A stretch of 64,000 bases of DNA from an uncultured Bacteroidaceae bacterium (GTDB lineage Bacteria; Bacteroidota; Bacteroidia; Bacteroidales; Bacteroidaceae). Positions within the stretch are counted from its first letter, which is position 1, and each line of letters opens with the position of its first letter. The stretch spans positions 310,001 to 374,000 of the forward strand of contig CAJOIE010000001.1 in NCBI GenBank assembly GCA_905234605.1, in the 5' to 3' direction. Under the pieces are notes generated by a model that was not told the DNA's origin, made no database searches, and saw only the letters and a list, made by a program, of their open reading frames with translations. The position numbers and the translations under genes are program-made. This document shows, piece by piece, positions 3,247-63,282 of this stretch.

Positions 3247-3398
3247 AACACCGTGCAGGGTCTTCGCGCAACACCCTGCACGGTGTTGCGCATTACAGTG
3301 CAGGGTGAATGGCCGCCACCCTGCACAGTGCCGCCACACTACAGTGCACCCGCCATCCTCAGCATGCGAGGGTGGCGGGTGCACGACATTGCAGGGCT
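3247..3398. repeat. TGCA-centred 22-23 bp periodic repeat, array A
   Basis: Near-palindromic units with TGCA cores start at 3254, 3277, 3299, 3322 and 3345 (steps 23, 22, 23, 23); a further core at 3390 is two periods away, with a decayed unit (ATGCGAGGGTGG) between. Examples are ACACCGTGCAGGGT and ACACCCTGCACGGTGT. The array fills the 232-base gap between two convergent genes, so it could act in transcript termination for both, but the rest of the gap shows no classic hairpin plus T-run. Confidence 0.85.
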
Positions 3399-3418
3399 GT
3401 CAGACGACAGATGCGTCC

Positions 3419-4741
3419 TTAGCCAAGAAAACTGAGCAGTATGCCGGCTGCCACAGCCGAGCCGATGACGCCGGCCACGTTGGGACCCATGGCATGCATC
3501 AGCAGGAAGTTGCGCGGGTTGGCCTTGGCACCTTCCATCTGCGACACGCGGGCTGCCATGGGCACGGCACTGACACCGGCCGACCCTATGAGCGGGTTAA
3601 TCTTATCCTTCACGAACAGGTTCATCAGCTTGGCAAGCAGCACACCGCCGGCACTGCCGAAGCTGAAGGCCACAATGCCCACAATGAGGATGCCTATGGT
3701 CTGCCAGTTGAGGAAAGCCTCGGCCGAGGCCGTGGCACCGACAGTGGTGCCGAGGAAGATGACCACGATGTTGTTAAGCTCGTTCTGGGCTGCCTTGCTC
3801 AGGCGATCCACGACGCCGCTCTCCTTCATCAGGTTGCCAAGCATGAGGCAGCCTATCAGCGTGGCGGCACTCGGGAGGATGAGGCTCACGATGATGGTCA
3901 CGATGATGGGGAAAAGGATCTTCTCGCGCTTCGACACCTCGCGCAGCTGCTTCATCTGTATCTCACGCTCCTTCTTGGTGGTGAGCGCACGCATGATGGG
4001 CGGCTGTATCACCGGCACCAGAGCCATGTAGCTGTAGGCAGCCACGGCTATGGGACCCAGCAGATGGGGTGCCAGCTTGGATGTGAGGAAGATGGCCGTG
4101 GGACCGTCGGCACCGCCGATGATGCCTATGCTGGCAGCCTCGGGGCTGGTGAAGCCCATCAGGTGGGCAACAATAAAGGTGACGAAGATGCCCAGCTGGG
4201 CGGCAGCACCAAGGAGCAGACTCTTGGGGTTGGCAATCAGCGGCCCGAAGTCGGTCATGGCACCCACACCAAGGAAGATGAGGCACGGATAGACGCCCAT
4301 CTTGACACCTATATACAGAATGTCGAGCAGGCCGCCTTCGGCAACCACATGCCTGTAGCTGTGGAAGTAGGGGCTGGAGGGATTGAGGAACTCATCGTTC
4401 CACATTGAGGTGTGGAACAGGCCGGCATCGGGAATGTTGGAGAGCAGCATGCCGAAGGCTATAGGCAGCAGCAGCAGTGGCTCATACTCCTTCTTGATGG
4501 CCAAGTAGAGCAGCAGCGAGGCTATCGCTATCATCACGGCATTCTTCCAGCCATCGCCCACGAAGAACGATGTCAGGGCCATGTCGTTCCAGAACTTGGT
4601 CATGGCCGTGGCAAAGTCGAAGTCCTGCGCACTCGCTGCCACGGGCAGCAGCATGAAGAGGAGCAACAGAGCCAGCCCCCTGCCTTTCCCGCTGAAGGAC
4701 TGGAGGAGGTGAACCCGCAGGTTGTTAAGTATACTATTCAT
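3419..4741 (-). CDS. Na+-pumping decarboxylase beta subunit (membrane)
   Basis: A 440-residue membrane protein of the OadB/MmdB/GcdB family, which takes CO2 from the biotin carrier and couples its release to Na+ export. It has about a dozen hydrophobic segments and the signature stretches '[19 protein letters not shown]' and '[21 protein letters not shown]', which hold Na+-site aspartates in this family. The N-terminal 40 residues include an extra hydrophobic segment ending 'AASAQ', resembling a signal peptide. It is the last gene of the operon mmdA - gamma - biotin carrier - beta. With an mmdA-type alpha subunit, the complex is best read as methylmalonyl-CoA decarboxylase, the energy-conserving step on the way from succinate to propionate. 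Confidence 0.93.
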
Positions 4742-4811
4742 CGTACATGGTTTTACTGTTATTCAATGGTGACCACTCCTCCCACGTAAGGGAGGAATGC
4801 GGGCATGCACA

Positions 4812-5534
4812 TCAGCCAAGCTCTACCATTGCCTGGCCGCTCTGCACTTGGTCGCCGACCTTCACGAGCACGGACTTCACCTTGCCTGCAAACTCGGCTG
4901 TGATATTGTTCTCCATCTTCATGGCCTCCATGACCACCACGGTGTCGCCGGCAGCTACATCCTGGCCGACAGCCACCAGCACCTGCTTGATGGTGCCGGG
5001 CAGAGGGGCCTGCACGCTCGATTCCACGGCAGCAGGAGCGGCAGGAGCAGCAGCCGGAGCTGCGGGCTTAGGTGCCGGCGCACCGGCAGGAGCCGTCTTA
5101 GGCACCGACAGACCCTCAAACTCCACCAGGGCATCACCCTGATTGACGCTTGCGCCCACTGTGGCATACACCTTGCGCACGATGCCGTCGGCCTCGGCAG
5201 TGATGCTGTTCTCCATCTTCATGGCCTCCATGGTGACGAGGGTGTCGCCCTTCTTCACCTTGTCGCCCTCCTTGACAAGCACCTTGGTGATGGTGCCAGG
5301 CAGAGGTGCGGCAATGATGTTCGGAGCCACGGGAGCCGCGGCTATGGGCTTGGTGGCAACAGCAGCAGGAGCTGCTGCGTGGCTGACGACGGGGCGCGGG
5401 GCCTGCCGGGTCAGCTCGGGGACTTCGACTGTATAGGTGTTATCGTTGACGGTGACTGCCAGCTTGCCATCTTCCTGAGGCACGACGGTAGCCTTCATTT
5501 CCTTGCCGTCTATACTGAATGTGAATGCTTTCAT
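4812..5534 (-). CDS. Biotin carrier protein with two biotinyl domains
   Basis: This 240-residue protein carries the biotin that shuttles CO2 from the carboxyltransferase to the membrane beta subunit. It has two complete biotinyl domains, each starting 'APLPGTI' and containing EAMKMEN: the biotin-accepting lysines are K106 and K206, exactly 100 residues apart. The domains are joined by an Ala/Pro linker (about 146-172), and a second Ala/Pro linker (about 45-72) follows an N-terminal beta domain ('MKAFTFSIDGKEMKATVV'). Homologues I know from this operon type have a single biotinyl domain and are much shorter, so this is an internal duplication. Position in the operon, between the gamma and beta subunits, supports the role. 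Confidence 0.93.
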   Translation of the reverse strand: MKAFTFSIDGKEMKATVVPQEDGKLAVTVNDNTYTVEVPELTRQAPRPVVSHAAAPAAVATKPIAAAPVAPNIIAAPLPGTITKVLVKEGDKVKKGDTLVTMEAMKMENSITAEADGIVRKVYATVGASVNQGDALVEFEGLSVPKTAPAGAPAPKPAAPAAAPAAPAAVESSVQAPLPGTIKQVLVAVGQDVAAGDTVVVMEAMKMENNITAEFAGKVKSVLVKVGDQVQSGQAMVELG

Positions 5535-5552
5535 TGTGAGTTGTGGGGTAGG

Positions 5553-62400: not shown

Positions 62401-62809
62401 TGGCGCTGGCCGAGACGTGGTTGGTGATGTCCTCCGACTTGATTTCGACGGCAGAGCCCGTGAATGTGGAACGCTTGGCCGTGCCGTAGGCAATGACCAT
62501 CACCTCGTCGAGCATGCGGTTGTCTGTGTCAAGGGCTATCTGCATGCCGTTGCGTGCACGCACCACACGGGGCAGCATGCCCATGTGGGAGATTTCCAGA
62601 CGGCTGTCGGCACTGGGTACAGTGATGGTGAACTGGCCATTGATGTTGGTCGTAGTGCCCGTCGTCGTGCCCACAACCTTGATTGCGGCACCAGGTAGCG
62701 GCTCACCATCATCTGCACTGATGATAGTGCCTCGCACCTGAGTCTGAGCCATAGCCATCCCCACACAGAGGAGCAGGCTACCCAGGAAAGCAAAAATTCT
62801 CTTTTCCAT
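59441..62809 (-). CDS. SusC/RagA-family TonB-linked outer-membrane transporter
   Basis: This 1122-residue importer has a signal peptide (about 1-22), a CarboxypepD_reg-like domain ('[31 protein letters not shown]'), the TonB box-like '[19 protein letters not shown]', a plug domain ('[20 protein letters not shown]' and '[28 protein letters not shown]') and a long TonB-dependent barrel ending '[12 protein letters not shown]'. SusC proteins take up oligosaccharides (or sometimes peptides) captured by SusD. No dedicated glycosidases adjoin it, so the substrate is unknown; the M6 protease downstream hints at peptides or glycoproteins but this is speculative. Start set by signal peptide; the longer frame to 62887 adds 26 residues. 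Confidence 0.95.
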   Translation of the reverse strand: [1122 protein letters not shown]

Positions 62810-62971
62810 AAATACTCTCTTAATTAAACATACGTTGTTATTAACTTGCTTGCTTTTTCTCTCTACATAATATTTCAGGTGTAGCACTAAGCGGGCTTAC
62901 CTTACCGGCACGGGGTATGCCTCTGCCCGCCGTAACCCTTGGTTTGTGTTTATTTTTACTAAAAGACGGTG

Positions 62972-63002
62972 CAAAGGTAAGCAAACATCTGTTAACGACA
63001 AT
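62972..63002 (-). promoter_or_regulatory. Candidate promoter for the SusCD operon
   Basis: On the minus strand: ATTG (62999-63002, one change from TTTG), a 19-base spacer, then TACCTTTG (62972-62979). It lies 163 bases before the chosen SusC start, leaving room for a leader in which regulation could act. Confidence 0.6.
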
Positions 63003-63178
63003 GAAAAGTATTAAAGAATGTAACTCCTTACAGTCACTTTTTTGCATCCCAAGTCCCCCTTTGCAGTACATTTGGGAAGCAAAAGGCGGCGGCCTGCTTG
63101 CATTTTGACAAAAGAATGCACCTCACGTCACTGTTTGCCGGCAGGCTGGCAGAAAATGAAATAAAATGTAAAGAAAAA

Positions 63179-63282
63179 CACCGTGCAGGGTATCTGGCAC
63201 ACACCGTGCAGGGTATCTGACACACACCGTGCAGGGTAAAAAGCATCACCGTGCAGGGTATCTGGCCCGCACCGTGCAGGGT
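63179..63282. repeat. TGCA-centred 22-23 bp periodic repeat, array F
   Basis: Five units of CACCGTGCAGGGT with cores at 63184, 63207, 63230, 63252 and 63275 (steps 23, 23, 22, 23). The spacers read ATCTGGCACA, ATCTGACACA, AAAAAGCAT and ATCTGGCCCG: three nearly identical, one drifted. The array lies upstream of both flanking genes (susC leftward, rpe rightward). Confidence 0.9.

Follow-up and report, generated by a model that had tools for sequence, protein, structure and literature searches.

A 64,000-nucleotide stretch of the genome of an uncultured gut Bacteroidaceae bacterium related to Prevotella (C1:310001-374000 of assembly G000; hereafter the window) carries short arrays of a repeated DNA unit with a step of 22 to 23 bp. 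We found 58 such arrays, comprising 264 units, in the 681 kb of two contigs, C1 (34 arrays) and C2 (24 arrays), which represent 29% of the assembly (2.36 Mb in 26 contigs; incomplete, 87% complete). With about even confidence, we read the arrays as cooperative binding sites of one predicted protein that partition the chromosome into stretches of comparable length. What we computed is the step between units, a constraint acting on the DNA itself, the spacing on two contigs, an orientation bias against transcription, and a pitch that relatives have in common with different sequences.

The first-pass annotation of the window had described six arrays of a near-palindromic unit. A scan for CACCCTGCAGGGTG with up to three mismatches returned 31 matches in the window versus 7.8 expected, and 31 was reached in 0 of 100 shuffles. 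A motif matrix was trained on C1:190001-374000 and C2 (458-kb sample). We used a motif-chain detector that called arrays of at least three units and permitted steps of 22, 23, 44, and 45 bp only. Seven arrays were called in the window: all six of those described were found in place, and a seventh (37705-37785) had been overlooked. The same detector called 0 arrays in 407 kb of reversed C1 DNA. Exactly four units were present in 29 of the 58 arrays. The strand of an array is the strand on which TGCAGGGT reads, and gene calls were made with a simple in-house program instead of a standard gene finder.

Step counts from the detector are biased by its permitted steps, and the unbiased evidence comes from counts of pairs and core distances. 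TGCAGGGT pairs 18 to 28 bp apart, searched with 10 to 20 bases between members, numbered 226 genome-wide (117 + 109) versus 0 + 0 for a reversed-pattern control, and their step was 22 or 23 bp only, among the matches listed. With no prior on the step and with cores counted in either orientation, core distances of 7 to 43 bp in the 458-kb sample fell 56 times at 22, 45 times at 23, and 4 times at all others together. Longer distances were concentrated at 44 to 46 (71) and 66 to 68 bp (43), with otherwise single counts below 70 bp. The 22/23-bp step reported in the first-pass annotation, and the genome-wide peak that it called for, were borne out by these counts. Within the limits of the detector, steps were 22 (122), 23 (75), 44 (4), and 45 bp (5), and the 197 single steps had a mean of 22.4 bp. 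This corresponds to 11.2 bp per turn, which exceeds relaxed DNA and would fit right-handed coiling or untwisting on a protein face.

We then measured the distribution of the arrays along the chromosome. The 56 inter-array intervals had a mean of 11.8 kb, a median of 10.7 kb, a minimum of 6.0 kb, a maximum of 31.4 kb, and a coefficient of variation (CV) of 0.39. As a null model, we drew 10,000 random placements of the same number of arrays for each contig, using gaps of 100 bp or longer; these gave a CV near 0.9 to 1.0. On C1, the CV was 0.44 with 0 intervals shorter than 5.9 kb versus 13.1 expected; on C2, the CV was 0.31 with 0 such intervals versus 8.5 expected. Neither the CV nor the minimum was matched by any of the 10,000 draws on either contig. 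The stretch C1:1-190000, held out of training, contained 15 arrays with 0 intervals below 5.9 kb versus 5.3 expected (P 0.0001) and a CV of 0.53 (P 0.0026), and in the first 458 kb the evenness result was the same with gap cutoffs of 40, 60, 100, and 130 bp. Placement on the two contigs (681 kb) is thus more even than expected by chance, as would be looked for in chromosome-organizing sites. Regular spacing is firm on these contigs and only partly supported in relatives, and it points to a structural function on the length scale of topological segments.

The first-pass annotation had placed its six arrays at gene boundaries. Not all of the 58 lie there, four being within genes. In the polyprenyl synthetase gene, the array adds ~36 residues in frame to a loop that has 82 residues here, 45 to 46 in 27 of 29 genus homologues, and 59 and 71 in the other two; smaller loop inserts at loci L276 and L293 had no 22-bp repeat that we could see by eye. 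For the GH53 glycosidase, four homologues align across the array without an array-sized gap, and their best three-unit chains score -21 to -29 versus +37 here, so that the array is absent in all four. For the PL11 rhamnogalacturonan lyase, the scores of three homologous stretches range from -32 to -42, versus +43 here, and the array is absent in all three; two of the three alignments across it are gapless and one has three residues missing. These data indicate that the PL11 and GH53 arrays arose by substitution, without array-sized insertions or deletions.

As a control, synonymous codons were shuffled (300 rounds, 658 kb of coding sequence). This replaced a first control (60 shuffles; mean 2.00 arrays, best 57.3) that had not set the genes with real arrays apart. 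Outside the four host genes, the shuffles produced 11 chance arrays in total, the best of them scoring 36.5. No shuffle of the same gene came up to the real score in any of the four host genes (73.5, 56.5, 37.1, and 25.4). The GH53 score is marginally over the best chance array, and the array in the efflux-like protein (25.4) is below it and is weak evidence.

Because of these intragenic arrays, one an in-frame insertion and those of PL11 and GH53 free of array-sized indels, we place the constraint on DNA and not on RNA or a mobile element. The arrays of the latter two genes contradict the possibility, raised in the first-pass annotation, that the repeats are decayed copies of one mobile element. 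Rickettsia palindromic elements are mobile, with full-length similarity and in-frame insertions in protein-coding genes; the present arrays share repeated DNA inserted in frame in a coding gene, but two of the four intragenic arrays arose without array-sized indels. A mobile or selfish element of that kind, a miniature inverted-repeat transposable element (MITE) with an internal minisatellite, or a repetitive extragenic palindrome (REP) is a very unlikely origin, although the ~36-residue insertion would fit it, as would the near-identical units of some arrays, such as the eight-unit C1:295848-296006. The minimum distance between arrays would also be unexpected of such an element, except through target immunity.

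The edges of the arrays bear on the same question. No conserved block flanked arrays of at least three units in the 458-kb sample, and flank information was near zero except in single columns, which carried at most 0.47 bit one unit step away or at the edge of the array and at most 0.41 bit elsewhere. The 14-bp cores were 0.76 identical within arrays and 0.71 between arrays. Spacers between units are 8 to 9 bp long and variable, with an 8-bp identity of 0.38 for adjacent spacers within arrays and 0.31 between arrays. BrickBuilt of Porphyromonas gingivalis, in the part of the source drawn on here, is a minisatellite/MITE of 19 copies with a leader, a tail, inverted-repeat ends, and spacer-free 23-nt repeats (PMC4596501). 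It shares with the arrays the phylum, an intergenic position, and tandem repeats of ~22 to 23 nt with conserved and variable halves; such 23-nt repeats in the same phylum are in favor of a mobile origin for the arrays. Unlike BrickBuilt as so described, the arrays have no conserved leader or tail and no terminal inverted repeats (458 kb), their spacers vary, they are far more numerous and evenly spaced, and some are intragenic. A MITE was rejected on the lack of conserved flanks and on the PL11 and GH53 arrays, which have no array-sized indel.

REP families tagged with GTAG/CGTC are short, species-specific palindromic repeats with several families per genome, and they go with RAYT tyrosine transposases and tag tetranucleotides (PMC3733652). 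The arrays are like them in these respects of repeat type and differ in their fixed pitch. Matches to PF01797 (Y1 transposase) numbered 0 in G000 (87% complete), G038, G491, and G249, with short matches in G010 (1) and G495 (2), and REP/RAYT was rejected on the absence of a match in G000. Nor is the unit in G000 a hairpin-forming palindrome of the REP type, with inner-pair complementarity at or below independence.

The consensus unit, from 188 units in 40 arrays, is [CG]A[CG][CG][GA]TGCAGGGTG. Complementarity between the arms equaled the expectation from independent columns, with no covariation, and the innermost arm pair was complementary in 7% of units versus 24% expected. The perfect center CTGCAG is avoided, occurring in 12 of 264 units, and 208 of 264 are directional (RTGCAG or, reversed, CTGCAY). 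By eye, a reversed unit stands first in 17 of the 58 arrays and last in 5. We therefore rejected a strict palindrome, on the missing covariation and the avoided center, and the strict dyad symmetry of the first-pass annotation does not stand; of its proposed site for a dimeric protein, what is left in this genome is a symmetric dimer site that is at best approximate. CTGCAG occurs 155 times in the sampled genome (458 kb) versus 336 expected, so general avoidance may account for part of its scarcity in units. Other palindromic hexamers are scarce as well in the same sample (CATATG, 7 versus 63 expected; GATATC, 9 versus 38), and restriction avoidance is possible. Two 22-bp arrays with other units, CACCTATAATAGCCATAC-like at C2:5395-5469 and GGTTATGTGGTTAATGGTAAAG-like at C2:23861-23948, were also seen; a second array family may be present in G000.

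For orientation, we removed the four intragenic arrays and one at a contig end, leaving 53 with both neighbors. They lay in same-strand (24), convergent (16), and divergent (13) gaps, the three settings already given in the first-pass annotation. In the same-strand gaps, the strand with TGCAGGGT ran against the genes in 19 cases and with them in 5 (P 0.007); in the other gaps, it opposed the nearer gene in 21 of 29 (21:8, P 0.024), and all four intragenic arrays were antisense. Median distances of arrays in same-strand gaps were 36 bp to the 3' end of the upstream gene and 110 bp to the start of the downstream gene, and the upstream 3' end was the nearer in 19 of 24. Control of a very large regulon by an ordinary transcription factor, with the arrays as its operators, is quite unlikely. 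A sequence-specific core, phased multiple sites typical of cooperative operators, and the arrays between divergent genes would agree with a regulon, whereas the convergent gaps, the arrays within four genes, the same-strand medians, the 6-kb minimum, and the even placement would not.

Proximity to gene 3' ends in same-strand gaps also raises the possibility that DNA gyrase or another topoisomerase docks at the arrays, in analogy to the type 2 bacterial interspersed mosaic element (BIME-2) of E. coli, and that ~90-bp wrapped arrays every ~10 kb remove transcription-driven supercoils at gene ends. The size of the arrays, their ~11-kb spacing, and, in relatives, 29 convergent versus 8 divergent arrays are consistent with this idea, and a step of 22.4 bp (2 x 11.2, more than 10.5) would be expected of a right-handed wrap. 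E. coli BIME-2/REP are, in the portion of the source used, repeated extragenic arrays with helical phasing that have been proposed to aid genome organization; sites of gyrase cleavage lie in BIME-2, and the gyrase motif of E. coli spans 130 bp with phased arms (PMC6379681). The repeated extragenic arrays described here are also helically phased. However, REPs are hairpin palindromes, and the gyrase motif has a GC period of 10.75 bp and is degenerate with no strong consensus, as opposed to the sharp, species-specific core of our arrays; that portion of the source gives no 22-bp pitch or minimum spacing for BIME-2 or gyrase sites (PMC6379681). Gyrase is conserved, and fast sequence turnover of its sites would be unexpected. 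Divergent gaps, moreover, hold 13 of the 53 intergenic arrays. We thus regard docking of a topoisomerase as unlikely.

The same orientation bias could be read at the level of RNA, as a Rho utilization site, a terminator, or a hairpin array in untranslated regions, with transcripts in 19 of 24 same-strand arrays of this genome carrying C-rich ACCCTGCA. In the 76 same-strand arrays of relatives, however, C exceeded G on the sense strand in 38, which is not the C-rich, G-poor transcript of a Rho site, and the mean skew was as in the flanks (0.010 versus 0.002, P 0.92). In palindromic units of relatives, G-U numbered 59 versus 49 A-C on the sense strand (P 0.39); neither this tolerance nor compensatory pairs, for which the arms of this genome were examined, was found. 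A fixed 22-bp pitch has no RNA rationale, and no Rfam family was over threshold in the window. RNA hairpins, terminators, and Rho sites were rejected on the lack of arm covariation, on strand composition, and on G-U counts, and we hold an element acting as RNA to be highly improbable.

The first-pass annotation had considered that absence from related strains would count against its reading. The outcome is divided: the motif is present in comparable numbers in no other species of the genus, and the pitch is common to relatives. TGCANGGT pairs in 139 genus genomes including this one numbered 459 in G000, 57 in G495, 35 in G491, and a few each in 36 others, and those in G495 and G491 belong to a different unit. 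The strict pattern was matched in 20 of 399 family genomes, with none besides G000 above 15. Reversed control patterns were matched 45, 23, 19, and 12 times in G469, G572, G577, and G080, perhaps by other array families. In G278, G128, and G314, we saw repeats of the TGCAGGGT core with steps of 20, mostly 23, and 24 bp.

Pitch was surveyed by motif-blind tandem-repeat detection in noncoding DNA. The periodicity counts leave out loci below 3 kb (1 of 24 same-genus, 1 of 21 in other genera, 2 of 20 in other families), scores below 60, arrays with over 30% coding sequence, and consensus sequences below 25% GC. In 947 kb of the same genus, period 22 was found in 67 arrays and period 23 in 5, other periods from 12 to 30 never exceeded 6, and 15 of 23 loci were positive. 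Among 80 Der relatives, the counts were 50 and 4 (37 of 80 loci); in the family's other genera, 10 and 2 (8 of 20 loci); and in other families of the order or phylum, in 262 kb only, 0 and 2 (1 of 18 loci). A 50-kb stretch of E. coli gave 0 period-22 arrays. A scan of viral contigs gave one stretch only, by eye an 11-bp repeat rather than a 22-bp array.

Array sequences in relatives vary between species and often between arrays. Of 113, 21 were strongly palindromic (at least 7 of 8 pairs) versus 2.2 expected, and most were not. The arrays that we saw in the mouse isolate Palleniella muris were weak. By gap, of the 113, 67 were same-strand, 29 convergent, and 8 divergent. The units at L072:16997-17063 and G495:C4:47899-47964 have the same near-perfect 22-bp palindrome (TTGCTGAATCATGATGCAGCAA and TTGCTTCATCATGATGCAGCAA); some array families are therefore common to species. 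Synteny around der, intended for comparing the same gap across species, was lost within a few genes in the first 13 of 80 loci. The arrays of relatives would belong to one and the same system, whose recognition sequence drifts.

Sites built by substitution in genes, a fixed two-turn step, and free spacers argue together for selection on double-stranded DNA and for interacting copies of a protein. We infer from these data the protein, its cooperativity, and chromosome organization as its function. Each array would provide about four sites for one sequence-specific protein on double-stranded DNA, whose copies would bind cooperatively, at a distance of about two helical turns from one another (22.4 bp). 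Selection would keep clusters at least ~6 kb and typically ~11 kb apart, and the chromosome would thereby be divided into segments of similar length. The most likely function would be anchoring, bridging, or insulating topological nucleoid segments, preferentially near the ends of transcription units. Of the first-pass proposal of a protein-site array for chromosome organization, the DNA-level array stands and is indirectly compatible with such organization; strict dyad symmetry is the part that fell. A more specific version, which we advance tentatively, is a chromosome ruler in this bacterial family, in which a predicted nucleoid protein would sit on four-site, two-turn arrays, one per ~11 kb, kept by selection. 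Here, arrays would be written even into coding sequence by substitution, DNA sequence would set the lengths of topological segments, and the recognition sequence would turn over from one species to the next, with the geometry unchanged.

Several observations weigh against the arrays as protein sites that segment the chromosome. The evidence for even spacing covers 29% of a single incomplete assembly. One interval extends over 31 kb; a series of minus-strand genes lies there, among them one for a TonB-dependent receptor, but so do gaps of more than 200 bp that have no array. Six successive arrays at C1:39149-121405 score only 25 to 41, with strong arrays on either side, such as one scoring 65 at 129.6 kb just past the weak stretch. 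Strict TGCAGGGT pairs number 76 in 458 kb (C1:190001-374000 and C2) versus 150 in ~1,900 kb elsewhere. This density is about half outside the examined contigs, so whole-genome evenness is not established; origin-relative position, another motif, or degeneration are possible reasons. In relatives, motif-blind evenness was mixed: G010 (CV P 0.23, minimum distance P 0.002), G495 C2 (CV P 0.013, minimum P 0.058), and G495 C4 (CV P 0.20, minimum P 0.020). G010 and G495 each have several sequence families side by side, which one protein per genome does not explain. The units are not true palindromes here, and the arm asymmetry and orientation bias are unpredicted by a simple insulator. The cognate protein was not identified, and no whole-genome search for it was made.

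The window arrays and the genes that host arrays are listed below. The window also encodes dnaA and der, and the closest named relatives of its Der are from rumen Bacteroidaceae/Prevotellaceae genomes (identity up to 89%). A caspase-like match (NF047832) at 49645-51657 on the minus strand reached 75 bits, below the cutoff of 140.

Table. Arrays in the window and genes hosting intragenic arrays. Positions are those of the window.
Feature	Position	Strand	Units; steps (bp)	Context
Array	3249-3353	-	5; 23, 22, 23, 23	Convergent genes: 1852-3186 (+) and OAD_beta, 3419-4741 (-)
Array	12187-12356	+	7; 23, 23, 22, 22, 22, 44	Convergent-gene gap; weak final unit overlaps 3' end of formyltransferase gene (12314-13438, -)
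Array	19233-19337	-	5; 23, 23, 22, 23	Divergent-gene gap; predicted open reading frame ending at 19029 (-) and ROK-family gene 19448-20401 (+)
Array	27049-27129	+	4; 22, 22, 23	Flanked by two minus-strand genes; S4-domain gene 26462-26938, open reading frame start near 27150
Array	37705-37785	+	4; 22, 22, 23	Within PL11 coding sequence
Array	53969-54071	+	5; 22, 22, 22, 23	Flanked by two minus-strand genes; degenerate units may extend it to ~54114 (TRF row 54062-54114)
Array	63179-63328	+	5 strong; 23, 23, 22, 23; weak unit at +45	Neighbors called divergent: 59441-62809 (-) and 63571 onward (+)
Rhamnogalacturonan lyase (PL11) gene	36018-38036	-		PF21348, E 1.2e-191; hosts array 37705-37785
Polyprenyl synthetase gene				E 7e-58; hosts array
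GH53 glycosidase gene				E 3e-74; hosts array
Outer-membrane efflux-like protein gene			3	E 2e-4, just short of family cutoff; hosts weaker array

matS/MatP and KOPS are chromosome-marking sites, and these, like Noc and SlmA sites, are generally single and stable in sequence among relatives. The arrays differ from sites of this type in being clusters of about four sites with a fixed pitch and a sequence that changes with the species. Noc sites (NBS) and SlmA sites mark the chromosome and, in the parts of the sources drawn on, are in each case numerous specific sites, dispersed along the chromosome and bound by a single structural DNA-binding protein (PMC4331003, PMC7468209), as is predicted here. 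The arrays do not resemble those of CRISPR, since units vary and spacers are 8 to 9 bp instead of ~30 bp, a comparison that did not extend to cas genes. By these comparisons, the arrays would appear to work most like scattered chromosome-marking sites, and no known family that we tested fits. Our searches of the open-access literature in PubMed Central turned up no array of this kind, most subscription papers being outside their scope.

Bacterial topological segments measure ~10 kb, according to the portion of the source used (PMC3420936), and our searches of the open-access literature found no DNA sequence that sets such a length. Here, a sequence feature with the scale of these segments and an evenness beyond chance is found in a major group of gut bacteria. 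Its fixed pitch combined with a fast-changing sequence is an unusual evolutionary pattern. Direct tests of the protein, of array removal or movement, and of segment length become possible, and the arrays look like an apparently unrecognized means of marking or organizing a bacterial chromosome.

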